Shown here one piece after another: positions 63 to 34,039 of a DNA stretch of 53,301 bases. The translations under genes were made by a program, and so were the position numbers. The DNA is taken from IMG/VR virus record IMGVR_UViG_3300043219_000190, positions 1-53,301 of that record; one strand, given 5' to 3'. A model generated the notes under the pieces. The model worked only from the letters and a program-made list of their open reading frames with translations, was not told the DNA's origin and did not search any database. The first letter of the stretch is position 1. The number at the start of each line of letters is the position of its first letter. This DNA is from a virus.

Positions 63-92
63 TTGACTAGTTAATATTTAAAATGCTATACT
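63..92 (+). promoter_or_regulatory. Promoter of the packaging/head operon (leaderless)
   Basis: TTGACT (63-68), an 18-base spacer and TATACT (87-92) preceded by TG at 84-85 (TGC before the hexamer). The ATG at 101 lies 8 bases after the hexamer, so the transcript probably starts at or next to the start codon. Three tandem GTAAA units lie just upstream (46-60). Confidence 0.7.
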
Positions 93-100
93 TTACTTAT

Positions 101-766
101 ATGATAATCACTAGGTATGGACTTCACAAAATTACAAATATAAATGAATCGGTTTTTTCTCAAATGTGGAAACGCCATCAAGCTGGAAAAGATTTTTATA
201 GTTTTTTTACAGACGACGGAAAAATAGATATTGAAGATAATGGATTCATAAAAAAATATTCACATAAAATAATTCCTGAAGAATTGGAAAAATTAAAAGC
301 TAAAAAAAATAAGAAAAATAATGTTGTAGTTAAAAAAGTTGTAGTTAAAAAAGATAGGGTTGTTAAACCTAAGAATGAAAAAAAAGATACAGAACCAGAA
401 AAACCGAAAGATGAAGAGTTGCAAAAATTAGCACGTAAGGCAACTATTGCAAAACATAAATCTGATATTTTTAAAGCAGATAAAGCAGAATTGGAACTAA
501 AAAAATCCCGTGCTGAAGTTGCAGAAATACAAACCATAGGCCAAGTTTGCATAGGTTACTTAATGGCCTTAAATCAAACATTACTAGACCAACCCCGTTC
601 ATGGATAGATGAAATTTCACTAGGAATTAAAGCTGGAAAATCAAAAACAGATTTAACCGATATGGCACGTAAACCAGCAATGGAAGCGATCGCCGAAAGT
701 ATAGAAATAATAAAAAAAGAGATCAAAAAATATAAGCGAGACACAAAGAGTTCTTTAAATGAGTAA
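101..766 (+). CDS. Putative terminase small subunit
   Basis: Product of 221 aa, called from position directly before the large terminase, which it overlaps by 8 bases, and from its make-up. Residues 1-50 could hold a DNA-binding fold. They are followed by a Lys/Glu-rich region (about 65-115) and a helical C-terminal half likely to oligomerise. The ATG at 83 lies inside the -10 element, so it cannot be on an mRNA from this promoter; the ATG at 101 (MIITRYGLHK) is used instead. No Shine-Dalgarno site precedes it, as expected for a leaderless mRNA. No clear helix-turn-helix is seen, so a different DNA-recognition or head role remains possible. Confidence 0.6.
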   Translation: MIITRYGLHKITNINESVFSQMWKRHQAGKDFYSFFTDDGKIDIEDNGFIKKYSHKIIPEELEKLKAKKNKKNNVVVKKVVVKKDRVVKPKNEKKDTEPEKPKDEELQKLARKATIAKHKSDIFKADKAELELKKSRAEVAEIQTIGQVCIGYLMALNQTLLDQPRSWIDEISLGIKAGKSKTDLTDMARKPAMEAIAESIEIIKKEIKKYKRDTKSSLNE

Positions 767-12142: not shown

Positions 12143-12170
12143 AGTGGGAACCGAAATTCCCACTTTTTTG
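12143..12170 (+). terminator. Intrinsic terminator after the chaperone genes
   Basis: GTGGGAA (12144-12150) pairs with TTCCCAC (12157-12163) around CCGAAA, then T6. It ends the plus-strand operon before the minus-strand module, so the tape measure gene needs its own promoter, and one is found. Confidence 0.88.
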
Positions 12171-12179: not shown

Positions 12180-12356
12180 TTAATCTAAAACCCATCTTAA
12201 AATTCTTAAATCAGCTTTTATGTTATCAAGTTCACCCTCTAAATCTTCAATATCATAATTATCATCTTCTTTAGAATTTTTAATATAACCCCTTGTTTTA
12301 GATAAAGCTTTTTCTCTATCTATAATCCTTTCTTCTACTTGCTCAATTGTTTTCAT
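12180..12356 (-). CDS. Small charged coiled-coil protein, moron module A
   Basis: Product of 58 aa (MKTIEQVEERIIDREKALSK onward), highly charged and helical with heptad-like spacing, ending in IKADLRILRWVLD. The start is set by AAGGAG 6 bases before the ATG at 12356, although the frame stays open upstream. A GCCC-TTCG-GGGC hairpin sits 2 bases before that ribosome site. It is the second gene of a two-gene minus-strand unit inserted between plus-strand tail genes. Function unknown. Confidence 0.6.
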   Translation of the reverse strand: MKTIEQVEERIIDREKALSKTRGYIKNSKEDDNYDIEDLEGELDNIKADLRILRWVLD

Positions 12357-12367
12357 ATTATCTCCTT

Positions 12368-12379
12368 GCCCCGAAGGGC
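12368..12379 (-). promoter_or_regulatory. UNCG-tetraloop hairpin before a ribosome site (module A)
   Basis: On the minus strand GCCC-TTCG-GGGC forms a UUCG-capped stem 7 bases after the upstream stop codon and 2 bases before AAGGAG of the next gene. Module B has the same arrangement with a UACG loop (near 16931-16942). Confidence 0.65.
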
Positions 12380-12386
12380 TCAATTG

Positions 12387-12647
12387 TTATGCCAACATGT
12401 CTCCGATACAATCGGTACTAAAAGGGTTTTCCCAAGCATTTGGAACTTCCGCCCTTGTATCAATTGCGCCCATATTAGAAAGCTTTTCAACAGTATCCTG
12501 TAATTTTGAATATAATTTTTGATATGTCAATGTTTCAGGGTTTGACCACCTTAATTTGGCTATTAGGCTTGAAGTGATTGATTCTAAAGTCTCTTGGTCA
12601 TCTGTTCTATTTATTAACGCTATAGTAACTCTTTTAATCTCTGTCAT
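12387..12647 (-). CDS. Hypothetical protein, moron module A first gene
   Basis: Product of 86 aa (MTEIKRVTIALINRTDDQET start). AAAAGGGG sits 6 bases before this ATG; an adjacent ATG at 12650 is equally in frame but closer to the ribosome site. The protein is helical and polar with no motif I recognise. It is transcribed against the late genes from a TAGACA/TATTGT promoter 35 bases upstream and is probably expressed independently of the lytic programme. Confidence 0.6.
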   Translation of the reverse strand: MTEIKRVTIALINRTDDQETLESITSSLIAKLRWSNPETLTYQKLYSKLQDTVEKLSNMGAIDTRAEVPNAWENPFSTDCIGDMLA

Positions 12648-12678
12648 CATGTACCCCTTTTCTTCCCTAACTATCTAC

Positions 12679-12707
12679 ACAATACCACAACCATTTAATC
12701 ATGTCTA
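12679..12707 (-). promoter_or_regulatory. Module A promoter (TAGACA-17-TATTGT)
   Basis: On the minus strand, TAGACA (complement of 12702-12707), a 17-base spacer and TATTGT (complement of 12679-12684), then the conserved downstream GTAGATA. One of five near-identical promoters in the window. Confidence 0.75.
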
Positions 12708-12730
12708 CTATATCCAACAAAAAAACACAC

Positions 12731-12759
12731 TTTTTTTAATTTATTTTTAATGCTATAAT
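12731..12759 (+). promoter_or_regulatory. Leaderless late promoter of the tape measure gene
   Basis: T-rich -35 region (12731-12736), 17 bases, TATAAT at 12754-12759 preceded by ATGC. The ATG at 12767 follows after 7 bases, so transcription should start at or beside the start codon. The same arrangement occurs before 17290 and 19496. Confidence 0.75.
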
Positions 12760-12766
12760 AAAACCT

Positions 12767-14803
12767 ATGGGACGAAGATTTATTATTCAGACAGATTACA
12801 AATCAGATGGTTCACAAGTTTTAAAAACTCAATCAAAAATGTCACGGTCTTTTTCAAGATTAGCAACTAACATGGCAGATAAAAATTCCATGATTTCAAG
12901 ATCATTTGGAAAAGTTAATCAATCAATAAATCGTGTTGCTATGGTTGGACTAGTTGCATTAATTGGTGCTTTTGGTTTAGCTGCTAATGAGTTTATTAAA
13001 TTCGACCAAACCATAACTGGTGCGAATGCAAGATTTAAAGATACCGTTTTAGGATCACAGCAAGCCGTCACGAATTTAGCATTGCTCAAAAAAGAAGCAC
13101 GAGCAGTTGCAGCAACTTCACAATTCTTAGGAACAGAGACAGCAGCAGGTTTAAACTTCTACGCAAAAGCAGGTTTCACAACCACTGAAGCCATGGCAGT
13201 TTTAGCCGATACAATAGATTTGGCAACAGTAGCCGAAGCAGATTTTAATAGAACCGCCGATATTTCATCAGACTTGTTAGGTGCATTAGGTAAAAATGTT
13301 CAAGATTCAGCCAAAAAAATAGAGAATTTAAAAGATATAAATAGAGCATTAGGTTTAACCGCTAATAGTGCAAATGTAGATTTGGAAGATTTATTCGAAA
13401 CCTTAAAAGTAGCTGCACCGATCGCAACGGCTGCAGGTGAAGGAATGCATGAACTTTTCGCAATCACTGGAGCATTGGGTGGTGCAGGTATTAAGGGTTC
13501 AATGGGTGCAACAGCATTAAAGAATGCTTATATAAGATTAGCAGCACCAACGGACAAAGTTACAGCAGCATTGGATAGGTTGGGATTAAGTCAAAAAGAT
13601 TTTGTAACCGCCGATGGTGATATGAAATCCATGGTTAATATAATGAAACAGTTAGGGGATGCATCAAAAGATTTAGGTAATGCCGATCAATTAGGTATAT
13701 TCTCAGAAATATTTGGAAAGAATGCAGTAGCTGGAGCCGTTAATTTATCTAAATCATTATCAGAAATAGAATTTATTATGGCAAAACTTGAATCCGCAAC
13801 AGCCTTAAAAGATCTAGCCGATGAAATCAGAACAGGTTTAGGAATGCAAATAGAAATATTAAAATCGGGATTACTAGAATTAGGTTTTCAATTTGTCGAA
13901 ACGTTCGAGAAAGATGGTCGGGGAGCTTTAGAGGAAATGATTAAATCGGTTCAAAGTTTCGATATTCAACCCATTGTTGAAATTTCAAAAGTATTTGTAT
14001 CTTTCATTAAATTCATAGCCAAAAACTGGAAAACCCTAGTCATTTTTGCAGCTGGAATTAAAGCCGTTGGTATAGCAATGGGAATTTTAACAATAGCCAC
14101 ACAATTTTTTGGTGTAGCATTAGCAGCAACCCCTGTCGGAATGATAATAACCGCCGTATTCTTATTCGGTGCAGCATTAGCCTTTTTATGGACACACATA
14201 GACGAAGTTAACACAGTAGTTAAGATCATGGGTAATTGGTTCAAATGGTTAGGAAAAGTAATCCTAGATTTCTTAATAATGGTCGGAAAGAAAATATTAA
14301 ATCTTCTTTTAGCTCCAATAAGATTAGCCGTTTCAATAATACAGGTACTTGCAGAAAAATGGGACGCTATTAAAAAATCATTCGCAGACGGTGGTTTTTT
14401 AAATGGAATATTAGGATTAGGAAAGACTCTATTGTCGGCAGTATTAGCCCCAATACAGGCTATTTTGGAACTAATTAGTAAAATCCCTGGTATTGGAAAC
14501 CTTGCAAAAGGTGGTGCTCTAAAGATTGAGGAAATAAGGAAATCACTAATAGATTTTAAAGATATACCTGAACAAAATAAACCAGAATTTCTACAACCAG
14601 AACAACCAACACCACAATTTCCATCAGTATTTAATACTAACACAGCACAAACCCCACAACCAACACCGCCAGAAGGTTCAAGTGGATCGGGTACACTAGA
14701 TATTAATATAAATGATAAATCTAACGGCAATGCAGAAGTTAAACAGAGTCGTAACATGCCGATTGGTGTTAATATTGGTATTAGCCCAACTTATGGGTTT
14801 TAG
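12767..14803 (+). CDS. Tail tape measure protein
   Basis: Product of 678 aa that sets tail length and is ejected with the DNA. An N-terminal coiled region (1-60) is followed by a PhageMin_Tail-type block with KEARAVAATSQFLGTETAAG and ITGALGGAGIKGSMGATALK. Strongly hydrophobic segments lie at about 423-478. A Pro/Gln-rich linker (about 605-640) precedes a short C-terminal tail. The ATG has no Shine-Dalgarno site but lies 7 bases after a -10 box, so the mRNA is probably leaderless. It is the first gene of a transcription unit restarting behind minus-strand module A. Confidence 0.9.
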   Translation: MGRRFIIQTDYKSDGSQVLKTQSKMSRSFSRLATNMADKNSMISRSFGKVNQSINRVAMVGLVALIGAFGLAANEFIKFDQTITGANARFKDTVLGSQQAVTNLALLKKEARAVAATSQFLGTETAAGLNFYAKAGFTTTEAMAVLADTIDLATVAEADFNRTADISSDLLGALGKNVQDSAKKIENLKDINRALGLTANSANVDLEDLFETLKVAAPIATAAGEGMHELFAITGALGGAGIKGSMGATALKNAYIRLAAPTDKVTAALDRLGLSQKDFVTADGDMKSMVNIMKQLGDASKDLGNADQLGIFSEIFGKNAVAGAVNLSKSLSEIEFIMAKLESATALKDLADEIRTGLGMQIEILKSGLLELGFQFVETFEKDGRGALEEMIKSVQSFDIQPIVEISKVFVSFIKFIAKNWKTLVIFAAGIKAVGIAMGILTIATQFFGVALAATPVGMIITAVFLFGAALAFLWTHIDEVNTVVKIMGNWFKWLGKVILDFLIMVGKKILNLLLAPIRLAVSIIQVLAEKWDAIKKSFADGGFLNGILGLGKTLLSAVLAPIQAILELISKIPGIGNLAKGGALKIEEIRKSLIDFKDIPEQNKPEFLQPEQPTPQFPSVFNTNTAQTPQPTPPEGSSGSGTLDININDKSNGNAEVKQSRNMPIGVNIGISPTYGF

Positions 14804-14824: not shown

Positions 14825-15982
14825 ATGCCAGTACAAGTTAAATCAATAAAAGAAAATGCTCAAAATTCACTAACTGATATAGAGTCAAAAACTAATCAAA
14901 ACACTCCAGAGGTGGACGTTGCATATAATAGAATAGTTGCAAATGCACAAGCTGGTTTAGCTACATTGTGTCAAATCCATAATGTGGATCAAAGAAAAGA
15001 ATGTTTTCCACAAACCGCAACTGAAAAAGTGGGTCTATTATTTTGGGCTGGTTTAGTTAATAGGCCACGTGGTAAAGGTACGCAAGCAGAATTACAAGCA
15101 TTAGCAACAGGAACCGACGGTGTAACTTTAGGCTCTGGTAGTACCGGTCCACGTTGGATCGCAAACAGCGGAATAAACTACACAACTAAAACAGGTGGAT
15201 TAATCTCTGGTGGAAGTGTATCTATAACCGTTTTAGCTAATCAATACGGTGTTGAGGGTACTCTACAAATAGGTGACGAAATAACTTTAACAACTACAAT
15301 CCCAGGAGTTAATACAACCGCCACAATCACAGCAATAAACGTTGTAGGTGCTGAAGAGGAAAACGTGGAAGCGTGGAGATCCGCAATTATACAGTTAGCA
15401 GCCTTCCCACCAAACACTGGAACCTCTTCATGGTTTTTTAACGAAACTATATCAGTACCTGGTATAACTAGATGTTACCCATATGTAAATCAAACATTCC
15501 CGGGACAGGAACTATTATATTGTGTTGCAGATGATAATGTTGACGGAACCCCAACAGCCCCACAATTAGACGCCGTAGAAGATCACTATAAAACAGCAAA
15601 TAAAAATATAATGTGGTCAACCGATCTATTACCGAATGCAGAAAAAAGAATAATAGCTCTAGTTTCACCATTCGACGTTTACGATGTAGTAATAACGGAC
15701 GGAACCCCAGCACTTTCTGCAAGTTTAAAAACCAAAATAGAAGCATCAATAAATAATTATTTCCTAACACGTAACCCATTTATCCTTGGTCTATCCCTAT
15801 TAAATCAAGGCTCAGTCGAAAAAGTAGCAATAACAGCAGTTGCACAAAATACAATCGATGCACAAACAGGAGAAACTGGAAAATTCACAGATATCGGATT
15901 AACTAAACAAGGTTTTCCACCAGAAGATGCATATATACTAATGCCAGGTTATCGGGCTACAGCTAATATTAGTTATACTTAA
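14825..15982 (+). CDS. Baseplate wedge protein, gpJ/Mu gp47-like
   Basis: Product of 385 aa with AAGGAG before the ATG. It shows the pattern of the baseplate J family: an N-terminal region with TEKVGLLFWAGLVNRPRGKG, a central beta-rich domain with ITLTTTIPGVNTTATITAIN, the EEENVEAWRSAIIQL block (near 178-192), and C-terminal KTKIEASINNYFLTRNPF. These proteins build the wedges that hold sheath and fibres. The gene follows tape measure by 21 bases; the Mu-type hub genes normally found between them are elsewhere in this genome. Confidence 0.85.
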   Translation: MPVQVKSIKENAQNSLTDIESKTNQNTPEVDVAYNRIVANAQAGLATLCQIHNVDQRKECFPQTATEKVGLLFWAGLVNRPRGKGTQAELQALATGTDGVTLGSGSTGPRWIANSGINYTTKTGGLISGGSVSITVLANQYGVEGTLQIGDEITLTTTIPGVNTTATITAINVVGAEEENVEAWRSAIIQLAAFPPNTGTSSWFFNETISVPGITRCYPYVNQTFPGQELLYCVADDNVDGTPTAPQLDAVEDHYKTANKNIMWSTDLLPNAEKRIIALVSPFDVYDVVITDGTPALSASLKTKIEASINNYFLTRNPFILGLSLLNQGSVEKVAITAVAQNTIDAQTGETGKFTDIGLTKQGFPPEDAYILMPGYRATANISYT

Positions 15983-16015
15983 TTATTGACATTATGATGT
16001 ATCAAGACTATATTT
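15979..16015. repeat. 37-base direct repeat, left copy, carrying a promoter
   Basis: Bases 15979-16015 and 16429-16465 are identical but for one base. Each contains TTGACA, 17 bases and TATATT. They flank the 16044-16376 gene and its terminator. Confidence 0.85.
15986..16014 (+). promoter_or_regulatory. Promoter of the 16044 accessory gene
   Basis: TTGACA (15986-15991), 17 bases, TATATT (16009-16014), a perfect -35 with optimal spacing. It lies just after the baseplate J stop and gives the following gene independent expression. Confidence 0.8.
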
Positions 16016-16043: not shown

Positions 16044-16376
16044 ATGATTTTAAAATTAGGTTACACAGATTTAGACGGTATCAATGTATTTAGGTATGTT
16101 GAAGATTTTACAGAGTTAAAGATTACTCCTTTTTTAACAACTAAATATAAATATAATAAAGAAAGTAATATGGTTATTTACAATAAAAAGCATGATGTTC
16201 AAGGGGTAGACCTTTTATTTAACCCTAAAATATTAGAAGATAACGAAGTTAAAGAAATGAATATTACATACCTTTATTTCTTAGATACTAAAACATCTAC
16301 ATATATTTCATACGCTTGTTTATCTGATTCAGTATTTTTAATGAATGATAACGGTAAAACAATAGATAAATATTAA
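16044..16376 (+). CDS. Hypothetical accessory protein with own promoter and terminator
   Basis: Product of 110 aa with AGGAGA 8 bases before the ATG. Beta-rich and soluble (MILKLGYTDLDGINVFRYVE start, a YLYFLDTKTSTYISYACLSD segment near the end). No family recognised. With its own strong promoter, terminator and flanking 37-base direct repeats it is a self-contained moron placed among baseplate genes. The protein could be made during lysogeny or early infection; its function is unknown. Confidence 0.6.
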   Translation: MILKLGYTDLDGINVFRYVEDFTELKITPFLTTKYKYNKESNMVIYNKKHDVQGVDLLFNPKILEDNEVKEMNITYLYFLDTKTSTYISYACLSDSVFLMNDNGKTIDKY

Positions 16377-16395: not shown

Positions 16396-16426
16396 AAACC
16401 CTTTAATCTAATTAGAGGGTTTTTTT
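16396..16426 (+). terminator. Intrinsic terminator of the 16044 gene
   Basis: AAACCCT (16396-16402) pairs with AGGGTTT (16416-16422) and is followed by T residues to 16426. Confidence 0.8.
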
Positions 16427-16428
16427 AA

Positions 16429-16465
16429 TTAATTATTGACATTATGATGTATCAAGATTATATTT
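16429..16465. repeat. 37-base direct repeat, right copy, carrying a promoter
   Basis: The second copy of the repeat at 15979-16015, one base different. Its TTGACA (16436-16441) and TATATT (16459-16464) are intact, but no gene of normal size follows. Confidence 0.85.
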
Positions 16466-16470: not shown

Positions 16471-16563
16471 AGTCATGAAATTCAAAATTTTATTTTCTTA
16501 GTTATCTTGGCACAATACTCTCCTTAATGATTTAACTTAGTACCCGTCACAGGGTACTTTTTT
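16471..16563 (+). ncRNA. Putative short RNA from duplicated promoter to terminator
   Basis: Transcription from the right repeat promoter should start near 16471 and stop at the terminator 16539-16563, giving about 90 nt. The only ORF is an 8-codon one (MKFKILFS) without clear ribosome site. The 3' end would be antisense to the end of the minus-strand gene 16537-16737. It may be a regulatory RNA, or only the remnant of a moron duplication. Confidence 0.4.
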
Positions 16564-16737
16564 GTTTACAAGGTAGTTTTTATTTAAGTCCTGTAACCAA
16601 GATTCATAACCAAACCATTTAAAATTGTTTTCAATTTGCCTTTTATGAGTATTTTTTAAATTAATTATTGTCGCAATATCCATGTTACAGGATATTGCGT
16701 TATTTAAAGTTTCAGTAAATAGGATTTCTAGTTTCAT
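16537..16737 (-). CDS. Hypothetical protein, moron module B third gene
   Basis: Product of 66 aa starting MKLEILFTETLNNAISCNMD. The ATG at 16737 has GAGGTGAA 7 bases upstream, which also contains the stop of the preceding gene; a GTG at 16746 is a less likely start. No motif recognised. It ends within a plus-strand terminator hairpin, so the last codons (VPCDGY) are shaped by the opposite strand. Confidence 0.5.
   Translation of the reverse strand: MKLEILFTETLNNAISCNMDIATIINLKNTHKRQIENNFKWFGYESWLQDLNKNYLVNKKVPCDGY
16539..16563 (+). terminator. Intrinsic terminator before module B
   Basis: AGTACCC (16539-16545) pairs with GGGTACT (16552-16558) around a 6-base loop and runs into T6. The stem lies inside the 3' end of the oppositely oriented gene 16537-16737. 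Confidence 0.85.
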
Positions 16738-16742
16738 ATTAT

Positions 16743-16919
16743 TCACCTCAGTTCAGAAACAAGTCCACCTATAGCAGAAGGAGTAAACCCATATTTTTTA
16801 TACATCTTCTTAGAAAATACTAGCGTAATTTTATTATTATTCTCCTCTAAAAACTTTTTTATTTCATTTTTCACAACTTCTCTTCGTTGTAATCCATTAT
16901 TAATCCCATATTTATTCAT
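16743..16919 (-). CDS. Small basic protein, moron module B second gene
   Basis: Product of 58 aa: MNKYGINNGLQRREVVKNEI, then basic residues including KKMYKKYGF, ending VSELR. AAGGAG lies 6 bases before the ATG, itself 1 base after a GCCC-TACG-GGGT hairpin. The helical, Lys-rich sequence with a TPSAIGGLV segment could be a small DNA-binding (helix-turn-helix) protein, but this is a guess. It overlaps the ribosome site of the next gene. Confidence 0.55.
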   Translation of the reverse strand: MNKYGINNGLQRREVVKNEIKKFLEENNNKITLVFSKKMYKKYGFTPSAIGGLVSELR

Positions 16920-16930
16920 ATTATCTCCTT

Positions 16931-16942
16931 ACCCCGTAGGGC
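16931..16942 (-). promoter_or_regulatory. UNCG-tetraloop hairpin before a ribosome site (module B)
   Basis: On the minus strand GCCC-TACG-GGGT directly follows the stop of the upstream gene and directly precedes AAGGAG. Compared with module A the loop is UACG in place of UUCG, and both are stable UNCG loops, so the fold is kept while the sequence differs. Confidence 0.65.
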
Positions 16943-17167
16943 TTATTTGTTAAACCAAGTTGTAGCATCAATATGATTAACTGGATATTCTTTTGATACA
17001 TTACCAAGAACAACTCGAACTAATTCAGTCCCTTTCTTAGATACTCTAAAACCAACTAAATCAAAGTCACCATCACGTATCATCTCTTTTACAGTTTTAA
17101 AATCCGATTCAACAACCTCTTGGCTTAAAAACTCTCTTAATCTGTTTATTTCTTTTCTATTTAACAT
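16943..17167 (-). CDS. Hypothetical protein, moron module B first gene
   Basis: Product of 74 aa (MLNRKEINRLREFLSQEVVE start). AAAGGTGG lies 7 bases before the ATG at 17167. The N-terminal half is helical and charged, the C-terminal half beta-like (FDLVGFRVSKKGTELVRVVL). No family recognised. It is driven by a promoter of the TAGACA/TATTNT family and heads a three-gene unit opposed to the late genes. Confidence 0.58.
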   Translation of the reverse strand: MLNRKEINRLREFLSQEVVESDFKTVKEMIRDGDFDLVGFRVSKKGTELVRVVLGNVSKEYPVNHIDATTWFNK

Positions 17168-17200
17168 CACTGTACCACCTTTCCTTATTTAACTATCTAT

Positions 17201-17229
17201 ATAATACCCTTTATAACTAATCATGTCTA
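17201..17229 (-). promoter_or_regulatory. Module B promoter (TAGACA-17-TATTAT)
   Basis: On the minus strand TAGACA (complement of 17224-17229), 17 bases, TATTAT (complement of 17201-17206). Back to back with the late promoter at 17254-17282. Confidence 0.75.
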
Positions 17230-17253
17230 CAAAAATAACCAAAATAAACAATC

Positions 17254-17282
17254 TTTTTTAAATTATTTTTTCATGCTATAAT
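17254..17282 (+). promoter_or_regulatory. Leaderless late promoter of the gp48-like gene
   Basis: Six T residues (17254-17259), 17 bases and TATAAT (17277-17282) preceded by CATGC. The ATG at 17290 follows after 7 bases. No Shine-Dalgarno site is present. Confidence 0.75.
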
Positions 17283-17289
17283 AACCCTT

Positions 17290-18174
17290 ATGGATAACCT
17301 AATCGAAAAATCATTAAAATCATTATTTCCAACTGGTGAAATTGCATGGGACGGCATGAATAACGGAACCATGAGAGAGATTTCCGACGGTTTAGCAATT
17401 CAAGGTGATCGTGATTATAAAGACGGTAAATCAATAGTTACTGATTTCTACCCAAATACGACCACACTACAAACCGAATGGGAAGAAACATATAAACTAC
17501 CAGCAGGTGAGATATTAACCCCAGAACAGCGAACAGCGCGATTAAATGCCGTTTGGTCACGTGAAGAGGTGGCAAGTTTTGACGGTATGAATCATATGTA
17601 TGAATTATCGGGAATTCCAGTTATCGCACGACCTCTATTACCTAGTGAAGATCCAAGAGTTATTGCAGAAGCCAAACCCGTATTTGATGTTTTTACAACA
17701 GTATTCGATGATGTAGTTTTTGGTGTCGATTCAGTATTCGGGGGATTCTCAGAAATTGAAGCGGAATTTCTCCCAACAATATTTGCAGACGGTCGACCAG
17801 GTGATCCAGCAATTAATTATTTAACAGTTTTCGACGATATAGTTTTCGGAGTAGATTCAGTATTCGGAGACTTTGAAGGTTCAAGAGTAGATCCGCCACA
17901 ATTAACAATTCCAGATGAAACTTGGACATGGCCTATGATCTATATAATAGAAGGACTAGACGGTGAATTTGCAGAAATACCAATCGAATTAAAAGATGCA
18001 TATGAATTTTTAACATATAAAAATAAACCCAATTTTATGTGGGCAATATCGAGAGTTGTATTTTTTGAAGAACCAATTCCAGTATTTAACGAAAATATAG
18101 TAACAGACGATGGGTTTACATTTGTCACAGATGATGGATTCAATATAGTAACACAAACCACGGAGGAAATTTAA
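17290..18174 (+). CDS. Baseplate protein, Mu gp48/DUF2313-like
   Basis: Product of 294 aa. The N-terminal 115 residues show the gp48-type pattern (KSLFPTGEIAWDG, TEWEETYKLPAGEILTPEQR, TARLNAVW). These proteins sit at the baseplate edge and connect to fibres; the fibre gene follows after one base. Oddly, VFDDVVFGVDSVFG (near 139) recurs as VFDDIVFGVDSVFG 42 residues later, and VTDDGF is repeated at the C-terminus, so the protein is longer than usual through internal duplication. Leaderless start 7 bases after a -10 box. Confidence 0.75.
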   Translation: MDNLIEKSLKSLFPTGEIAWDGMNNGTMREISDGLAIQGDRDYKDGKSIVTDFYPNTTTLQTEWEETYKLPAGEILTPEQRTARLNAVWSREEVASFDGMNHMYELSGIPVIARPLLPSEDPRVIAEAKPVFDVFTTVFDDVVFGVDSVFGGFSEIEAEFLPTIFADGRPGDPAINYLTVFDDIVFGVDSVFGDFEGSRVDPPQLTIPDETWTWPMIYIIEGLDGEFAEIPIELKDAYEFLTYKNKPNFMWAISRVVFFEEPIPVFNENIVTDDGFTFVTDDGFNIVTQTTEEI

Positions 18175-18903: not shown

Positions 18904-19383
18904 TTAATAAAATAATTCATCAAAACTATAGCTATACTTGACATCACTATCAACCCTACGTCCTGTTTGTGGTTCAATTAAGTCACCGTTTGATAATTGA
19001 ACCACAGCATGATTTGCATTTCCACCTTCGATAATTGTTCTAGAATCCTCAATTAGTACTAAGTTAGCTTTTTCCCCTTTTTTTACATAAAGAATATTTA
19101 TATATAGTATAGCGAAATCTTCACAATCACCACTTTTGTTTAAAAAAGTTTCTTCAGGTGACTGAAATTCATCTCTAATGTCGACTTTATATTCAATCAT
19201 ATGCCTTAATTTAAACCCTAAGTTAAAGTAAGTGCTAAAATCAGGAAGATAATCACTGGCATATATTTCTAAACTACCATCATTTATGCGTTCATATATT
19301 AAAGAATCAATCCTCATGCTAGAACTTTCCAATTCACATCCCATAAACAAAATACAAAAAACAGTAATAATAATCTCTTTCAC
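18904..19383 (-). CDS. Lipoprotein with transglutaminase-like cysteine protease fold
   Basis: Product of 159 aa. A GTG start is chosen because GGAGGGG lies 6 bases before it; this leaves a compact signal peptide MKEIIITVFCILFMGC with the lipid-carrying Cys at 16. The mature part has NKSGDCEDFAILY with Cys87, then His125 in NANHAVVQL and acidic D134/E136 in GDLIEP, the Cys-His-Asp order of bacterial transglutaminase-like enzymes. It would act on the periplasmic or outer face of a membrane, cutting or cross-linking protein or peptide. It stands alone behind a moron-type promoter, suggesting a function for the lysogen or for exclusion of other phages. Confidence 0.7.
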   Translation of the reverse strand: MKEIIITVFCILFMGCELESSSMRIDSLIYERINDGSLEIYASDYLPDFSTYFNLGFKLRHMIEYKVDIRDEFQSPEETFLNKSGDCEDFAILYINILYVKKGEKANLVLIEDSRTIIEGGNANHAVVQLSNGDLIEPQTGRRVDSDVKYSYSFDELFY

Positions 19384-19407
19384 AATAAACCCCTCCAACA
19401 TATCTAC

Positions 19408-19436
19408 AGAATACCATCAATACTAACTAATGTCTA
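19408..19436 (-). promoter_or_regulatory. Module C promoter (TAGACA-17-TATTCT)
   Basis: On the minus strand TAGACA (complement of 19431-19436), 17 bases, TATTCT (complement of 19408-19413), then GTAGATA. It drives the lipoprotein gene and is back to back with the late promoter at 19461-19489. Confidence 0.75.
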
Positions 19437-19460
19437 TAACATACACCATTAAATACAATC

Positions 19461-19489
19461 TTTTTTAATTATATTAATCATGCTATAAT
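19461..19489 (+). promoter_or_regulatory. Leaderless late promoter of the gp46-like gene
   Basis: Six T residues (19461-19466), 17 bases and TATAAT (19484-19489) preceded by CATGC. The ATG at 19496 follows after 6 bases. The upstream CAATCTTTTTTAA is shared with the promoter of gene 17290. Confidence 0.75.
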
Positions 19490-19495
19490 AAAAGT

Positions 19496-19915
19496 ATGAT
19501 TAATATAACAAATAACACCCAATATAACGGCGAACCAGCAATAATAAACGGCGATGTAGTTAAAAACGGCGGTGATTATAAAAGAGTAACAGCCCTAAAT
19601 AATAAAATACTAATCTTGGTCGGTACAGATTCAGGTTATTGGGGTAATTTAATCGAACCTGTTAACTCTCAAATAAAAGGCGGTCTAGAATTATTAAAAG
19701 GGCGTGCGATCACATCAAACTTTTTAAAAGAACATACCCAAAAAGTAGAATCGTTATTAAGTCCCATGATTACAAGTAAACAGGCAAAAAGCGTAAAAGC
19801 AGAATCATTTAATAGATTTGCTGATCGTGTAGATTGGACTGCGTTAATTGTTTTAAAAGATGGACAGAAGTATTATTTTGAAAGTAGTACAGGTGAAGGA
19901 AAATTTATTAATTAG
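19496..19915 (+). CDS. Baseplate protein, Mu gp46-like
   Basis: Product of 139 aa. The core LVGTDSGYWGNLIEPVNSQI (about 41-60) followed by a helical ALL-type segment (FLKEHTQKVESLLSPMI) and a beta C-terminus WTALIVLKDGQKYYFE matches the gp46 family of Mu-like baseplates. In Mu, gp46 lies next to gp45 and gp47; here spike and gpJ-like genes are 7 and 4 kb away. There is no ribosome site; the start codon is 6 bases after a -10 hexamer. Confidence 0.65.
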   Translation: MINITNNTQYNGEPAIINGDVVKNGGDYKRVTALNNKILILVGTDSGYWGNLIEPVNSQIKGGLELLKGRAITSNFLKEHTQKVESLLSPMITSKQAKSVKAESFNRFADRVDWTALIVLKDGQKYYFESSTGEGKFIN

Positions 19916-27670: not shown

Positions 27671-27929
27671 GTAACATTTTTAGTACCCAGTGGTCAGTAT
27701 CACTACCTTTTATATCTGGGCTGGTATTACATTCATGATCTTCTAGACAACCTTGTTCTATTTCGTATTGACCATTAACTATAGGGTCGTTTAAGCCACA
27801 ATTGCCACAACATTTTAATGATTCAATATAATTTTCTATATTTCTTAATGATTCAAAACAGTCTCTAACTGCTCCAGTTTGTCTAACCATTTTGGATAAA
27901 TATTCTAAATCTTTTTTAACATCACACAT
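27657..27929 (-). CDS. Cysteine-rich small protein
   Basis: Product of 90 aa, start at the ATG 27929 (MCDVKKDLEYLSKMVRQTGA) with GAGAGGTGG upstream. It contains CCGNCG (near 43) and later GCLEDHEC, suggesting a zinc site. The start overlaps the stop of the gpN-like gene, and the 3' end overlaps the spike gene on the other strand. Function unknown. Confidence 0.5.
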   Translation of the reverse strand: MCDVKKDLEYLSKMVRQTGAVRDCFESLRNIENYIESLKCCGNCGLNDPIVNGQYEIEQGCLEDHECNTSPDIKGSDTDHWVLKMLPNLI

Positions 27930-29247
27930 AATAAACCACCTCTCTCCCTTTATCCACCATAAAAATATTATCTCCATAGATCCCATTGGTATCTTTAAAA
28001 AAGTCTAATGTTGCAAGTTCTACGGAATTATATAATTTTGCACACCAACCAATTATAGATAATGTCTCTTCTGCGATAAAAACAACTTCCCTTGCACTAT
28101 TGAAAATTCTTTCATTTAGGTTTTTAACGGTATTACTCACGATTGTTTTATTTAGTATTGAATAATCAAAGTATTGTGTAAAAAATGTTGATGCACCAAA
28201 TATTGATGCTCGGTCGCCTAGTATTTCAGTAGTGTTTAATGCAGAACTTAAAACCGCTTGGATGGTCTCGATTATTTGTGGTCTGGATAAATAACCGCCT
28301 GTAACCTCTGTTTCACCCGATTGTATTTCTGATATTGTGATTGACTCTGTTGATACGGCACTGTAATTTATTGCGGAAATTCCAGCTAATGAAGATAAAC
28401 CGGCAACGCTTAAAATATTTTTACCTGAAGGCGAACCGCTTTTAAATTCGTTCTCGTCTGTTTCTGAGAATCCCAAAACATCATTAACATATTCTTGATA
28501 TGCGGATAATCTTAAAGTAGCTTGGTCTACTGCTAACATTGGTAACTGGATTAAATTCTGCATTTGCCGTGCAAGATCAAATGGCGCTCGTGCTAATGTG
28601 TCAATATCATCTAATATATTTCCAGCGGTTGTACTAAATAATATTGCAACTTCATCTACAGCACCAGCAATTGACGATAATCTTTCGGTCGCAGTATTAA
28701 CAGCAGATACAGCACTATTAACTAAACTTGCAAATCCTGCCCCTGTGGACAAATCAACACTATTTGCAAAGTCATTAGCCTGTTCTATATTTAATTCATC
28801 GATTGCTGAAGCCGTCGCACTTGCGGAACTGGATAACGGGTCACCACCCAATAGGTTAGGTATATCTTTTAAAAATGTTACAGTAATTTTAGCAATACCA
28901 GATTTTTTAGTAGTATTCTGTCCATAATTAATAGATGATATTACCACAGGAAAAGTTCCTAAACTTGGATCTGGATGTTCTAATTCACCAACACTATCCT
29001 CTGTCTTTTTCTCATTAAATGCATCCCGAATTTCTTTTAAAAAATCTTGATTATCAATTAATAATACAAATGTATAATCACCAGTATTTAATGAATTATC
29101 TTGATGAAATATTCCATCCTGTCCAGCGAATTGGAACGACCCTAAATTATGTATTACTGAGTCGTTTAATTCGCCGTCGAAAGGGAATTCAAGTCTAGTG
29201 CCTGTTTCTGGTGATGTGTAGGCTAGGTTTCTGTAGTTTGTTATCAT
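27922..29247 (-). CDS. DNA circulation/baseplate protein, Mu gpN (gp43)-like
   Basis: Product of 441 aa. The N-terminal domain matches the DNA circularisation family: RLEFPFDGELNDSVIHNLGS, then FQFAGQDGIFHQD, GDYTFVLLIDNQ and a Gly/Pro loop ELEHPDPSLGTFPVVI. The middle and C-terminal parts are helical and Ala/Ser-rich. In Mu-like tails it joins the tube tip to the baseplate hub. AAAGGA lies before the ATG. The start region is duplicated upstream of the next gene (29535-29560), showing an insertion in front of it. It is transcribed against the other late genes. Confidence 0.72.
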   Translation of the reverse strand: MITNYRNLAYTSPETGTRLEFPFDGELNDSVIHNLGSFQFAGQDGIFHQDNSLNTGDYTFVLLIDNQDFLKEIRDAFNEKKTEDSVGELEHPDPSLGTFPVVISSINYGQNTTKKSGIAKITVTFLKDIPNLLGGDPLSSSASATASAIDELNIEQANDFANSVDLSTGAGFASLVNSAVSAVNTATERLSSIAGAVDEVAILFSTTAGNILDDIDTLARAPFDLARQMQNLIQLPMLAVDQATLRLSAYQEYVNDVLGFSETDENEFKSGSPSGKNILSVAGLSSLAGISAINYSAVSTESITISEIQSGETEVTGGYLSRPQIIETIQAVLSSALNTTEILGDRASIFGASTFFTQYFDYSILNKTIVSNTVKNLNERIFNSAREVVFIAEETLSIIGWCAKLYNSVELATLDFFKDTNGIYGDNIFMVDKGREVVYYV

Positions 29248-29253
29248 GATAAT
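29228..29253. repeat. 26-base direct repeat, left copy (gpN start region)
   Basis: Bases 29228-29253 match 29535-29560 with one mismatch and include the palindrome TTATCATGATAA. The left copy holds the real start of the gpN-like gene; the right holds a dead copy that reads MITNYRKVEGV and stops. Confidence 0.8.
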
Positions 29254-29522
29254 TCCTTTATTTTAATTGGTTTAGCACAGTAAGGGCAAACTTTGAAGCT
29301 TTTATATTGATGTGGTTTTATAGCATTATCATGACCGCATGTTGTTTCTGCCACCCACTTGCTAAAGGGCTTCCATTCACATTCTTCTTTTTCCCATTCT
29401 GAACTTTTTAAAACTTCTGGTTCAGAACAAATCTCGACTTCACCTTTAAAACCTTTTTGATTTCTAACTAACTTATATTTAAAGCAATTAGGATATTTTA
29501 AGCAAAAATCTTTACAAGTCAT
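29244..29522 (-). CDS. Cysteine-rich zinc-ribbon protein inserted by repeats
   Basis: Product of 92 aa with GGAGGG 5 bases before the ATG. Cys pairs at the start (MTCKDFC, then YPNC), CEW, CGHD and a final VCPYCAKPIKIKE suggest one or two zinc sites. It lies between 26-base repeats that duplicate the gpN start, and it ends within 4 bases of the gpN ATG, so it appears to be a later insertion. Function unknown. Confidence 0.6.
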   Translation of the reverse strand: MTCKDFCLKYPNCFKYKLVRNQKGFKGEVEICSEPEVLKSSEWEKEECEWKPFSKWVAETTCGHDNAIKPHQYKSFKVCPYCAKPIKIKELS

Positions 29523-29534
29523 ACACCCTCCACT

Positions 29535-29560
29535 TTTCTGTAATTTGTTATCATGATAAT
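29535..29560. repeat. 26-base direct repeat, right copy
   Basis: One mismatch to 29228-29253. It overlaps the last codons of the YopX-like gene and the upstream region of the zinc-ribbon gene. Confidence 0.8.
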
Positions 29561-29946
29561 AAATCCTTGTTTTCGTGTATGTTTCCGATTATTTCAATAT
29601 AGTTCCCATCAGATTCTAAACTTCCCAATAAGGCTTCATTTGGGGTGGCTTCTTTTGTAATAAAATAATGTGCCCCTCTTATGTATTTAACCACACCTTT
29701 ACATGTAGCCATTGGAGCGTACCACATATTAATAATATCCCCTTCGTAAATATCAACACCATTTTTATCTTTTAATCCAGTAAATTGTTCAATAGGATAT
29801 TCGCCATTTATACCATCTATAAAATAGGATGATTTTTTGACATAATCCCAATTGACATATTGACCGCTACACTCCTTTGAATCTACCTCTGATATATCTT
29901 TTGGTATTGATTTATCCCATATCCTAAATTTTAATTCTCTTTTCAT
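29551..29946 (-). CDS. YopX-family protein
   Basis: Product of 131 aa. The YopX signature is clear: KFRIWDKS at 6-13 and IEQFTGLKDKNGVDIYEGDI at about 52-71, then a beta-rich C-terminus with GNIHENKDLL. The family is common in phages of many bacteria, and its function is not known. It overlaps the HTH gene upstream by 4 bases. Confidence 0.82.
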   Translation of the reverse strand: MKRELKFRIWDKSIPKDISEVDSKECSGQYVNWDYVKKSSYFIDGINGEYPIEQFTGLKDKNGVDIYEGDIINMWYAPMATCKGVVKYIRGAHYFITKEATPNEALLGSLESDGNYIEIIGNIHENKDLLS

Positions 29947-30221
29947 ACACCCTCCACACCATTCATTAATGCTTTAATCTTATCATACTTAGCAATCAAA
30001 CCCTCTAAGTTATCCACTTTTGACAGTTTTAATTCTAACTCTTTATTTTTATTATACATATCGATTAACACATAAATATATTTTGGTGGGGTAATTGCTC
30101 CCTCACGTGCTGAAATATAATTAGATAAAGTATTTCTCTTCACTCCAAATAATAAACCTGCTTCGGTCTGGTTAATGTTATTTTCTGCGATGAAATTTCT
30201 TATTGTTTGTTTATTGTTCAT
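29943..30221 (-). CDS. Helix-turn-helix protein
   Basis: Product of 92 aa with AAGGAGA before the ATG. Residues 3-35 form an XRE-like HTH: TIRNFIAENNINQTEAGLLF, then GVKRNTLSNYISAREG as recognition helix. A coiled C-terminal helix (KNKELELKLSKVDNLEGLIA) would allow dimerisation. It could be the phage repressor or an accessory regulator; its position in a moron-like unit makes either possible. One of three candidate DNA-binding regulators in the window. Confidence 0.65.
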   Translation of the reverse strand: MNNKQTIRNFIAENNINQTEAGLLFGVKRNTLSNYISAREGAITPPKYIYVLIDMYNKNKELELKLSKVDNLEGLIAKYDKIKALMNGVEGV

Positions 30222-30559
30222 TTTTTATTTGTCTCCTTTTCTGGTTTACCGTGATGATTAGCAATAATCACCTTACAACACTCTTTATCTATTTTACTAA
30301 AACAATGCTCTTTTAATACCCATCGTTTCTCGTGTGTTGGATTATTTACAGTCCAGACATATACAGGAGCATCATCAGGATAATTATCACCTGTTCTTTT
30401 TTCCCATTCTGAAACAGTTTCATGTTTAGGGATATCGATAACCTGTAATAATTCTTGACAATCTCTTCTACCTAATTCAATAGAACTTATTAATTCGCTA
30501 TCTGCAACATTGTGTAACATTTCAGAATATTTCTCTCTTAACTTCTCAATCACCGCCAT
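30218..30559 (-). CDS. Hypothetical protein
   Basis: Product of 113 aa if the ATG at 30559 (MAVIEKLREKYSEMLHNVAD) is used; a TTG at 30568 and a GTG at 30553 are alternatives around the same GAGGGAG site. Mixed helical/beta, with WEKRTGDNYPDDAPVYVWTV in the middle and CC near the end, a form seen in small phage proteins of unknown role. It overlaps the 41 aa gene upstream. Confidence 0.5.
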   Translation of the reverse strand: MAVIEKLREKYSEMLHNVADSELISSIELGRRDCQELLQVIDIPKHETVSEWEKRTGDNYPDDAPVYVWTVNNPTHEKRWVLKEHCFSKIDKECCKVIIANHHGKPEKETNKK

Positions 30560-30671
30560 CTCCCTCAACTTCTAATATCTCCAAATCAATCTCAGCTAAT
30601 TTTAACATCTTTTTTGCAAGCTCAATTTTTGTTTCCTGTAACTCTTTTTTTAGTTCTTCAAGTTTTGTCAT
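30546..30671 (-). CDS. Tiny coiled-coil protein
   Basis: Product of 41 aa: MTKLEELKKELQETKIELAK, then a second helix ending EVEGDGGD. Regular heptads indicate a coiled coil. Start and stop overlap the genes on both sides (ATGA-type at the start), which supports real translation. Function unknown; it may also serve to couple translation. Confidence 0.5.
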   Translation of the reverse strand: MTKLEELKKELQETKIELAKKMLKLAEIDLEILEVEGDGGD

Positions 30672-31297
30672 AATTTAATTATCCCTCTTTTTTGATACCC
30701 TGTATTAATCCACAATCCGACTCTAATTCTATCATTAAGCATATAAAAATCAGCCTTACAACAAGGACAATGTGCTTGTGTTATCCTAAAACCGCCATGT
30801 TTTTTATAGTCGTATGGTGGTTGTTTTAATGGTGGTTTTGATATTCCTAGTATTTTACGTTTAAAAGTATCGCTTTTATTTTCAATGTCTCTTAAATCTG
30901 TAGTTTTCATGAATTCATTTATTATATCAGGACATACTTTAATATTCCGTTTATCAGATTTATCCCATTTCCACGGTTCGCCCAATTTTTCAGATGTGAC
31001 TAAAAATTTCTGATAATGATTTATTTCATTTTTCCCAACATAACCGCAAGCTGGACATTTAATATTATCGTGTGGGTAGATCTCGTAACATAATGAGCAT
31101 AGTTTATTGCCTGTTTTATCTGGATCAATACGTTCTTTTTGCATTTTGTCGGAATCCTTTTTATTGGCGGATATAACAACCTTTCTCCAGTTACTAAAAT
31201 GTCGATCGCAACCGTCGCATAATTTACCGTTACAGGTTGAGCAATCCTCTATAAAAGTAAAGTTTTTTAGGAATGTTTTAATTTTGGTTAGGATCAT
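30668..31297 (-). CDS. Protein with several zinc-ribbon motifs
   Basis: Product of 209 aa from the ATG at 31297 (GGGGTG 6 bases before; overlaps the upstream stop). Three Cys clusters are visible: CSTCNGKLCDGC near 20-31, CSLC...CPACG near 68-86, and HCPCCKAD near 178. Multiple zinc ribbons suggest binding of nucleic acid or scaffolding of a protein complex. No recognised family. Part of the module driven by promoter D. Confidence 0.55.
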   Translation of the reverse strand: MILTKIKTFLKNFTFIEDCSTCNGKLCDGCDRHFSNWRKVVISANKKDSDKMQKERIDPDKTGNKLCSLCYEIYPHDNIKCPACGYVGKNEINHYQKFLVTSEKLGEPWKWDKSDKRNIKVCPDIINEFMKTTDLRDIENKSDTFKRKILGISKPPLKQPPYDYKKHGGFRITQAHCPCCKADFYMLNDRIRVGLWINTGYQKRGIIKL

Positions 31298-31506
31298 GAA
31301 ATGCACCCCATAAAACATTTTAAAGTTTTAACATGTTCGTGAATTGAAAATCTTAAACTAGCTTTAGACACCAAATATCCATCTTTGTTTTTTATTCTTT
31401 TCAACGTCTTACAACAATATTGACACTGTATTATTGTCTTTAAAAAGTCATTCCAAAAATTATCATTATACTTTTTTGCATTTTCTTCTACTTCTTTATA
31501 ATCCAT
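31294..31506 (-). CDS. Small zinc-binding protein, first gene of module D
   Basis: Product of 70 aa from the ATG at 31506 (GAGGAG 9 bases upstream). Contains CQYCC (near 28) and a later HEHVKTLKCFMGC, together a likely zinc site. It is the first gene after a TAGACA/TATTGT promoter located within the minus-strand hub genes. Function unknown. Confidence 0.55.
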   Translation of the reverse strand: MDYKEVEENAKKYNDNFWNDFLKTIIQCQYCCKTLKRIKNKDGYLVSKASLRFSIHEHVKTLKCFMGCIS

Positions 31507-31538
31507 AACTACGCTCCTCAACGTTCAAATATACTTAT

Positions 31539-31567
31539 ACAATACCATAACAATAACTTAATGTCTA
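31539..31567 (-). promoter_or_regulatory. Module D promoter (TAGACA-17-TATTGT)
   Basis: On the minus strand TAGACA (complement of 31562-31567), 17 bases, TATTGT (complement of 31539-31544). The -35 touches the stop codon of the LysM hub gene. Confidence 0.72.
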
Positions 31568-32851
31568 CTAAATAACACTATCGGCAGGGATTAAGCTTAA
31601 AATTGCGGTCTTTTTTTCTGTATTCGGCCTATTAAATTTAATTACTGATATCATCATAAGTTTAGGTTTTGCACCTGTTAGGGGGAACTGTAGTGTTATA
31701 TAATCACCTGTAGACCACTTTTTGCCAGTTATAGGGTTTAACCATGATGGGAATGGGATTTGATTATTATAGAAATTTTTAATCGATTTCTGTTCTTCCC
31801 ATTCTGTAACTGATTTAATATTGGATCCCGTTGCATCTTGGTAATCTGTTATTTTTACAGTTTGTTGTAATAATGTTTTAGATTGTACAACACTTTCAAT
31901 ATTTGCATCGTCTGGTGTTGTAGTTTTCCCGATATATTGACCGAAAAGGTTTTTAGTATCGAATGTAAAAGTTAATGATTCTATTCCTAGGAAAGTTACA
32001 AATTCAGAATCTACAATAAAATCCGCAACTGGATCTTTTAATACTGGTTTTATTATTAATAGTTTTCCTGTACCTGTTTTATCTACTATTAAATTATGTT
32101 CCCTTGCAATTCTGGATAAAAATAGGAATGGTTTTTCAGCATCTTCAATTGAGACTTTAGAGAATATTTGACTTGCTCCTGCAATTGCAGCTTCTTCTAT
32201 TTCAAAATCTACAGAATAGGCACGGCAGATAATACCAGTTAAATCTTCTAAGGACTGTTTTAAATATTCTCGTTCAATTGCTGGTAGTATATCGGATTTT
32301 TCAAGCGGAAACGTTGCAGAACGACCGCCTAGGGATTGTATGTTACTGGATGGGGTAATTGTGTTACTTGGTGTTTCAATCTCTCCAGTTAATGCTGGAT
32401 CTTTACCTATATGAATTCTAATTTTTGGTAGACCTTTAGTTTTAAAATCATCGATATTAATATTATATGCTGGATTTTTTAGGTCTTTAGAATATGGATA
32501 GGATAAAACATAATTATCTGAGCAAGTGCCGAAATATTGGGTTAATTCGAACTCATGGGGTAATGGGCATTTTTTATCATCTATAAAGATATTGAGTTCA
32601 TCTTCAGAGTCAACTTTTAAGACCTGTGCTTTTTTAAGATCATCCACCGCTGAGGAAACAATATTTAAAATGTCTCCTGGATAAATCAAATCATAATCAC
32701 CGCCGATTAGAGCCCGACTTCTTTTAATCCGATCTGGCGTGAAAACTTGCGGATTAGCGTCCACAATTTGCTGGACTGATAGATTGTTGTTTAATGCGAT
32801 TGCCGATACTGTGTCGCCGTCTTTTACGGTGTGTTGGGTTTTAATTGGCAT
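31568..32851 (-). CDS. Baseplate hub protein with N-terminal LysM, gpD/Mu gp44-like
   Basis: Product of 427 aa. Residues 5-63 are a LysM domain (HTVKDGDTVSAIALNNNLSV start, LIYPGDILNI end), which binds peptidoglycan. The rest has the look of late-control/gpP hub proteins, beta-rich with NPITGKKWSTGDYITLQFPL near the C-terminus and a KPFLFLSRIAREHNLIVDKT segment. These form the trimeric hub that carries the spike. AAGGAGA precedes the ATG. In Mu this gene is adjacent to gp43 and gp45; here about 2.3 kb of unrelated small genes separate it from gp43. Confidence 0.7.
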   Translation of the reverse strand: MPIKTQHTVKDGDTVSAIALNNNLSVQQIVDANPQVFTPDRIKRSRALIGGDYDLIYPGDILNIVSSAVDDLKKAQVLKVDSEDELNIFIDDKKCPLPHEFELTQYFGTCSDNYVLSYPYSKDLKNPAYNINIDDFKTKGLPKIRIHIGKDPALTGEIETPSNTITPSSNIQSLGGRSATFPLEKSDILPAIEREYLKQSLEDLTGIICRAYSVDFEIEEAAIAGASQIFSKVSIEDAEKPFLFLSRIAREHNLIVDKTGTGKLLIIKPVLKDPVADFIVDSEFVTFLGIESLTFTFDTKNLFGQYIGKTTTPDDANIESVVQSKTLLQQTVKITDYQDATGSNIKSVTEWEEQKSIKNFYNNQIPFPSWLNPITGKKWSTGDYITLQFPLTGAKPKLMMISVIKFNRPNTEKKTAILSLIPADSVI

Positions 32852-33221
32852 TGGTGGGGTTCTCCTTTATTTGATCTAATATGTATTTAATGGCTTGGGT
32901 TTTTGCTTGGTCTGTATCGTGTGTTCCTATAAAATAAAAGTCTTTGATATCATCTAAAACATTGTGAAATATCTCAAGACCACCCCTGTTTTGTCTTATC
33001 ATAAACATACCATCTTTTCTATTTATCCCTTCAATAACTCTTTGTAGAAATAGTGGGTATACAGTCAAATCTTCAATAAAATCTTTATAGTAGGATCTCG
33101 ATTTACTAGGACAGACAATTAAAAAACCATTCTCCCAAACCTTATGATAAAGAATTTCAAACCCATCCACAAACTCACACGCTTTCTTAATATCTTCAAT
33201 TGTTAATTTAATTTCTTCCAT
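32841..33221 (-). CDS. Hypothetical protein upstream of the hub gene
   Basis: Product of 126 aa with GGAGAGGAAG before the ATG. Mixed alpha/beta (KKACEFVDGFEILYHKVWEN, GGLEIFHNVLDDIKDFYFIG) with no motif recognised. It overlaps the LysM hub gene by 11 bases, so the two are probably translated together. A tail-assembly helper or unrelated moron are both possible. Confidence 0.5.
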   Translation of the reverse strand: MEEIKLTIEDIKKACEFVDGFEILYHKVWENGFLIVCPSKSRSYYKDFIEDLTVYPLFLQRVIEGINRKDGMFMIRQNRGGLEIFHNVLDDIKDFYFIGTHDTDQAKTQAIKYILDQIKENPTNAN

Positions 33222-33315
33222 CTTCCTCTCCTAAATAAACGGTGTCAACATCATCTACAAAACTAATTATAGTAACACCTATTATTATATGTACTATTAT
33301 TATCCATATTATCAT
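33208..33315 (-). CDS. Tiny single-pass membrane peptide
   Basis: Product of 35 aa: MIIWIIIVHIIIGVTIISFV, then an acidic tail ending EEDGRN. The start overlaps the upstream stop (ATGA) and the end overlaps the next start, the mark of a translated chain. It has no ribosome site of its own. Could be a toxin-like or regulatory membrane peptide; function unknown. Confidence 0.4.
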   Translation of the reverse strand: MIIWIIIVHIIIGVTIISFVDDVDTVYLGEEDGRN

Positions 33316-33494
33316 ATTATATCCCGACTTGCTAAATAATCTAAATAATCATCACCACAAGAATTTTCATAAACAACCTTTTCTTTTTTAGGTTTTATTT
33401 TTATTGGATGTTGCCCGATATATCCGCAATCATTACATTTGTAAAAATTCTTAGATAATCCATATATTTTAGTGTTTTTGTGTTTACAGTTCAT
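33312..33494 (-). CDS. Small zinc-ribbon protein
   Basis: Product of 60 aa. MNCKHKNTKIYGLSKNFYKC followed by CGYIGQHP gives a C-x2-H...C-x2-C zinc ribbon. GGAGC lies before the ATG, which follows the upstream stop by 3 bases. Function unknown. Confidence 0.6.
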   Translation of the reverse strand: MNCKHKNTKIYGLSKNFYKCNDCGYIGQHPIKIKPKKEKVVYENSCGDDYLDYLASRDII

Positions 33495-33497
33495 AGT

Positions 33498-33989
33498 TTA
33501 GCTCCTTTTTAACCATTTCGGTCTATTACCCTTAACATTAAAATCAGATTTACAGCCACGATCTAATAGACACATAGCTGATTCTGGTTCTATATCCATG
33601 GCGTTAAATAATAATGTCTCTGGTTCGATCTCGTCAAATATTTCAAACTTAATTGTTCTCTCTGGTAATTTTAAGAGACCGTTTGTTATTTTAAACTGTT
33701 CTTTTTCAAAAACTTTAGTTATAGATCTAATAGTTCCTGATGATACATAAAGAATTGTAGGAGTCTTTTTTACAGCTCCAATTATATTTTCAAATGCAGT
33801 AATTGCACCTTCTGGGTTATCTTGCCATAATAGTTGTGGTGGTTTTATCCTTGATTCTTCCACTCTTTCTAATGTATATCCGAGCTGAGTAGCACGAGCT
33901 ATTACATTATCAATCGGGCTTTCAGTAGCTCCACATGCAGAATGTTTTGTAATTGTAATTGTTATTTTTTTTATTGATCCGTGTAACAT
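33498..33989 (-). CDS. Hypothetical protein
   Basis: Product of 163 aa with AAAGGGG 8 bases before the ATG. Alpha/beta composition (TPTILYVSSGTIRSITKVFE, EIFDEIEPETLLFNAMDIEP). No recognised family. A hairpin (34014-34031) lies between it and the upstream gene, in the same place as in modules A and B. It belongs to the unit behind promoter E. Confidence 0.5.
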   Translation of the reverse strand: MLHGSIKKITITITKHSACGATESPIDNVIARATQLGYTLERVEESRIKPPQLLWQDNPEGAITAFENIIGAVKKTPTILYVSSGTIRSITKVFEKEQFKITNGLLKLPERTIKFEIFDEIEPETLLFNAMDIEPESAMCLLDRGCKSDFNVKGNRPKWLKRS

Positions 33990-34031: not shown

Positions 34032-34039
34032 TGATTTGG

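Follow-up and report, generated by a model that had tools for sequence, protein, structure and literature searches.

Leaderless late promoters predicted behind antisense gene modules in the tail operon of an uncultured contractile-tailed phage

How might a phage carry small genes that are read against its own structural operon and still make the tail proteins encoded beyond them? The question is raised by a 53,301-base IMG/VR virus record with a GC content of about 33% ('the window' below means this whole stretch), which belongs to an uncultured, contractile-tailed phage of about 53 kb with the following layout.

Plus strand: late region with terminase, portal, protease, sheath, tape measure and baseplate genes.
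Mostly minus strand: region with primase, methyltransferase, RecE-like exonuclease, helicase and two baseplate-hub genes.

The hub genes (27922-29247 and 31568-32851) lie on the minus strand amid the replication genes and apart from the plus-strand tail operon, and the same is true of the second relative described below. Near the right end (52359-53231) there is a GIY-YIG homing-endonuclease-like gene (SegE-like, E 6e-7), and in the proteins scanned we saw neither an integrase nor a CI-type repressor.

Two relatives were used for comparison. The close one (L003/L004, a 25,980-base record) is about 79% identical to the window in nucleotide sequence across the head and tail-tube genes, the figure around the three sites considered here being 72-78%; the second (L050/G1, 44,209 bases, hereafter G1) is 52-59% identical in the amino acid sequences of its sheath, TerL and baseplate proteins. 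The window is probably a whole genome, as 15 bases (GGTCTATTTGCGAGG) are common to its two ends (1-15 and 53287-53301) and the related L003 record starts at the same base; the ends of G1 have GTCATTTTGCAACT in common, and together this pattern points to fixed, cos-like genome ends. Neither prophage nor host nor relative turned up in two scans of bacterial and archaeal genomes, and a search with the window TerL alone found no viral relative. When named phages were compared, the tape measure, sheath and TerL matched only distantly and the major capsid and tail-I-like proteins had no match.

The preliminary description of this DNA had drawn attention to three intergenic regions (12661-12769, 17181-17292 and 19387-19498) with the same order of elements, each separating minus-strand small genes from a plus-strand late gene. 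The sequence reads so at all three, the plus-strand genes being those for the tape measure (12767), a baseplate wedge/tail-I-like protein (17290) and a baseplate wedge protein (19496). The similarity, put earlier at about 110 bp, extends over about 105 bp and lies outside the promoter hexamers too, with many invariant columns between them (pairwise Smith–Waterman scores of 43.5-51.5, the best of 500 shuffles per pair being 31.5). Each region holds a minus-strand promoter (Pm) and a plus-strand promoter (Pp), both predicted, and Pm recurs at two further places in the window.

12668-12709, minus strand: Pm1, with TAGACA at 12707-12702, 17 nt, TATTGT at 12684-12679, then GTAGATAGTTA.
17190-17231, minus strand: Pm2, predicted module promoter.
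19397-19438, minus strand: Pm3, predicted module promoter.
31528-31569, minus strand: Pm4, in sense orientation, overlapping the stop of the hub gene 31568-32851 and heading the small genes 29244-31521.
34227-34268, minus strand: Pm5, in sense orientation, heading the small genes 32841-34204 ahead of the hub gene 31568-32851.
12724-12761, plus strand: Pp1, with TATAAT at 12754-12759 and an extended −10; tape-measure ATG at 12767 without a Shine–Dalgarno sequence.
17247-17284, plus strand: Pp2; baseplate wedge/tail-I-like ATG at 17290 without a Shine–Dalgarno sequence.
19454-19491, plus strand: Pp3; baseplate wedge ATG at 19496 without a Shine–Dalgarno sequence.

Every module of the window is preceded by a Pm, a conserved sigma-70-like predicted promoter whose late-region boxes read TAGACA-17-TATTGT/TATTAT/TATTCT. 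A matrix built from four late-region copies scored 38.4 at 34268 and 23.8 at 31569 on the minus strand, compared with a maximum of 15.7 in 20 random genomes, and a scan for the minus promoter gave matches in the close relative only. Of the five window copies, three lie at the head of antisense modules in the tail operon, the other two leading sense modules beside the baseplate-hub genes; these two sense copies rule out Pm as a marker of antisense modules only. Paralogs resemble one another about as closely as orthologs do, Pm3 being nearest to Pm5 (37/42, versus 28/42 for its own ortholog), and this may reflect copying within the genome by recombination, a weak indication given the AT-rich spacers.

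The modules behind these promoters have a GC content of 0.27-0.32, against about 0.33 overall, and four are as follows.

12180-12650, minus strand: module 1, two small ORFs (67 and 87 aa) of no confident family.
16537-17170, minus strand: module 2, three small ORFs (69, 58 and 75 aa) of no confident family.
18904-19401, minus strand: module 3, one ORF of 165 aa with a weak transglutaminase-like match (DUF553, E 1.7e-4).
29244-31521, minus strand: sense module 4, six ORFs between the hub genes, including a YopX-like one (29551-29946) and a weak HTH-like one (29943-30221).

No homology was found among the module proteins of different sites, and at the same site the module proteins of the window and of the close relative are unrelated. 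An element of about 40 bases (GCCCTTCGGGGCAAGGAGATAATATG), comprising a hairpin, a Shine–Dalgarno sequence and an ATG, is common to module genes whose proteins are unrelated (12345-12380, 16915-16954 and L004 13522-13568). Site 2 also has a near-perfect 37-base direct repeat (15979-16015 and 16429-16465) that flanks a plus-strand accessory gene (16044-16376). The repeat reads TTAATTATTGACATTATGATGTATCAAGAyTATATTT and so contains TTGACA-17-TATATT.

The plus-strand element has the form TTTTTT-17-TATAAT with an extended −10 (TGC), the ATG of the next tail gene lying 7, 7 and 6 nt past TATAAT at sites 1, 2 and 3. A conserved T-run takes the −35 position in place of TTGACA, so that the T-rich block noted earlier is itself the element at that position. 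Within the window Pp is unique to the three sites (PWM scores 41-49, the next being 7.4), and it is kept at all six orthologous sites of the two phages (about 79% nucleotide identity); these two are its only carriers, and with the outgroup at 52-59% identity such sparse sampling limits how far the change can be polarized. Searching IMG/VR with the plus core recovered the close relative plus many other contigs, and these others were set aside as seemingly unrelated, their T-run often resembling the terminator tail of the preceding gene. Pp probably serves as a late restart promoter for the tail genes.

Shine–Dalgarno strength is zero at all six Pp genes (three in the window, three in the close relative) and good at most neighbouring genes, and at each of the six a −10 box stands 6-8 nt before the ATG. 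To judge from this spacing, transcripts from Pp would be leaderless. The same arrangement occurs at 21336, where there is no module, and at two further places.

63-103, plus strand: predicted promoter at the head of the late operon, TTGACT at 63-68, 18 nt, TATACT at 87-92 and ATG at 101, leaderless by position.
42221-42235, minus strand: leaderless start, by arrangement, of the minor tail-like gene 41441-42223, TATAAT-6-ATG.

The ORF listed from 83 probably begins too early, given the leaderless ATG at 101, and the G1 ortholog of 41441-42223 (30256, minus strand) is likewise leaderless by arrangement. Leaderless transcripts are, according to the authors of the AR9 study, frequent in phages. 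Since such starts occur at 101, 21336 and 42223 as well, Pp resembles the usual late-start style of this phage and not a foreign part.

Transcription arriving from upstream would meet predicted terminators at two of the three sites.

12143-12170, plus strand: predicted terminator that would stop the upstream late transcript before module 1.
16539-16564, plus strand: predicted terminator at the left edge of module 2, with the same TTTTTTGTTTA tail as 12143-12170.
16396-16426, plus strand: predicted terminator behind the accessory gene 16044-16376 at site 2.

At modules 1 and 2 the strong predicted terminators face the late transcript and the minus-strand ones are weak or absent; predicted terminators are also present at sites 1 and 2 of the close relative, and none was found at site 3.

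Comparison with relatives bears on how this arrangement arose. G1 has the tape-measure, tail-I-like and baseplate-wedge genes contiguous with their neighbours, with no module, Pp or gap at any of the three sites, in keeping with the earlier proposal that the late promoter would be missing where the module is missing; its counterparts of the Pp genes have Shine–Dalgarno sequences, that of the tape-measure gene being a partial match only. Vibrio phage CKB-S1 and Shewanella phage SppYZU01, both distant, have unbroken late regions with contiguous boundaries at sites 1 and 2. The modules thus lie, in the manner of morons, between genes that stand side by side in related phages, and this contiguity is most simply read as a gain of the interruptions and of Pp in the lineage of the window. 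In the close relative Pp is present at each of the three orthologous boundaries. Its site 1 has a module that lacks the conserved Pm and includes, within the tail operon, a minus-strand gene for a Mom-like DNA modification protein (L004 6569-7168; Pfam Mom, E 1.3e-36), and its site 3 has Pm, Pp and a module. At its site 2 there is Pp and no module; the 159 bases between the genes include a terminator hairpin and a short reverse-strand Shine–Dalgarno–ATG stub resembling the start element of module genes elsewhere, apparently the relic of a module. A late promoter at such a site without a module had been named in advance as counting against the idea, and technically that is what this site shows, with the apparent relic alongside it.

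The window supplies an internal contrast. The two modules headed by Pm4 and Pm5 run in the same direction as the surrounding operon, and in the window neither Pp nor any other leaderless start was found behind them; where the window has six Pm-headed genes between its hub genes, G1 has just one, unrelated and of 88 aa. Pp therefore accompanies antisense modules only (three of three, against none of the two sense modules), a comparison internal to five modules and made without a statistical test. This is as expected if Pp restarts an interrupted operon, and it lends support to the earlier suggestion that the late promoter is rebuilt behind the insertion.

We consider it rather probable that antisense accessory modules are here combined with a leaderless late restart promoter; promoter activity, timing, termination and leaderless translation are in this account predictions from sequence. 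The plus-strand tail operon would be broken at three gene boundaries by modules read backwards from Pm. Late RNA from the head promoter would stop before module 1 at the predicted terminator, and Pp1 would restart transcription through the tape-measure gene and the baseplate gene after it; the late RNA would stop again at the site 2 terminator, to be restarted from Pp2, while at site 3 it would meet opposing transcription of the module and be restarted from Pp3. As Pp would start at or beside the A of the ATG of the next tail gene, the mRNA would be leaderless, and this start would substitute for the Shine–Dalgarno sequence of the formerly continuous operon. Pp would have originated together with the interruption and, because the downstream gene would depend on it once in place, it would be retained even as the module decays. 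Besides the sparse sampling noted above, three observations stand against this account: no terminator was found at site 3, Pp at site 2 of the close relative has no module beside it, and leaderless late starts occur where there are no modules.

The last two of these are what would be expected if Pp were an ordinary late promoter, one per late unit, with the operon split first and the modules settling later in the gaps. No module accompanies the leaderless starts at 101 (the late-operon head), 21336 and 42223, of which the one at 42223 is conserved in G1. We regard this as possible but rather unlikely, as G1, CKB-S1 and SppYZU01 are unsplit at these boundaries, each of the three splits in the window falls where an antisense module lies and site 2 of the relative has the apparent relic.

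The version of the preliminary description, in which Pm and Pp make up a single portable cassette that moves together with its module by copying or insertion, is improbable. Pm and Pp do stand at a fixed spacing in four of the six sites of the window and close relative, paralogs match one another as well as orthologs do (Pm3 being closest to Pm5) and the phage encodes a RecE-like exonuclease. The halves are nevertheless separable, with Pp lacking Pm at site 1 of the relative and standing alone at its site 2, and Pm4 and Pm5 lacking Pp, and neither a target-site duplication nor defined ends were found, so the sites do not support a single portable unit. Chance resemblance of AT-rich intergenic DNA can be dismissed: the regions are AT-rich and sigma-70-like sites are in general no commoner than in shuffles, but the alignments outscored all 500 shuffles of each pair, the PWM gaps for Pm and Pp are large and a second phage retains Pp.

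Several known systems resemble the predicted combination of antisense modules and leaderless restart promoters in part. Phage P2 has multiple late promoters activated by Ogr, which acts at a site, TGT-N12-ACA, near −55. Here too the tail genes would be divided among several late transcription units, but that motif is present near −55 at only one of the six Pp sites, so that an Ogr-type activator was rejected for Pp, and no Ogr match was found among the proteins scanned. The late operon of P22-like phages carries variable non-structural modules, including the ant moron between genes 16 and 9 and the pid locus, which has the opposite orientation to its neighbours and a terminator (PMC2629481; PMC3573128); it is described with a single promoter, late transcription running through the ant moron (PMC8022706; PMC2629481). 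The likeness lies in variable modules inside a late operon, one of them (pid) reversed, whereas the window phage has a new predicted late promoter behind each antisense module and the same divergent pair at three sites. PeSL cassettes are repeated regulatory cassettes between the modules of T4-type phages, proposed as mediators of shuffling (Arbiol 2010; Comeau 2014; cited in PMC4503421). They share with the window a repeated regulatory element between modules; however, they join an early promoter to a stem-loop in T4-type genomes, whereas the repeat in the window is a divergent promoter pair in a phage that is not T4-type. Interruption of a late operon by morons is thus already known, and what sets this case apart is the predicted leaderless restart promoter behind antisense modules, of which we found no description in the literature searched, whose coverage was partial.

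As a tentative and somewhat doubtful generalization, there may be a phage-specific grammar of insertion in which antisense modules either bring along or favour the selection of a leaderless late promoter joined directly to the next ATG, so that modules could be inserted at gene boundaries with late expression kept, sense modules needing none. The rule that it offers can be read in sequence: an antisense module with Pp, a sense module without. The arrangement is a further predicted example of major structural genes with leaderless starts. A leaderless promoter brings its own start context and could serve any downstream gene, which hints at why some boundaries could tolerate such insertions and at how a phage carries genes against its own structural operon without losing its tail proteins.
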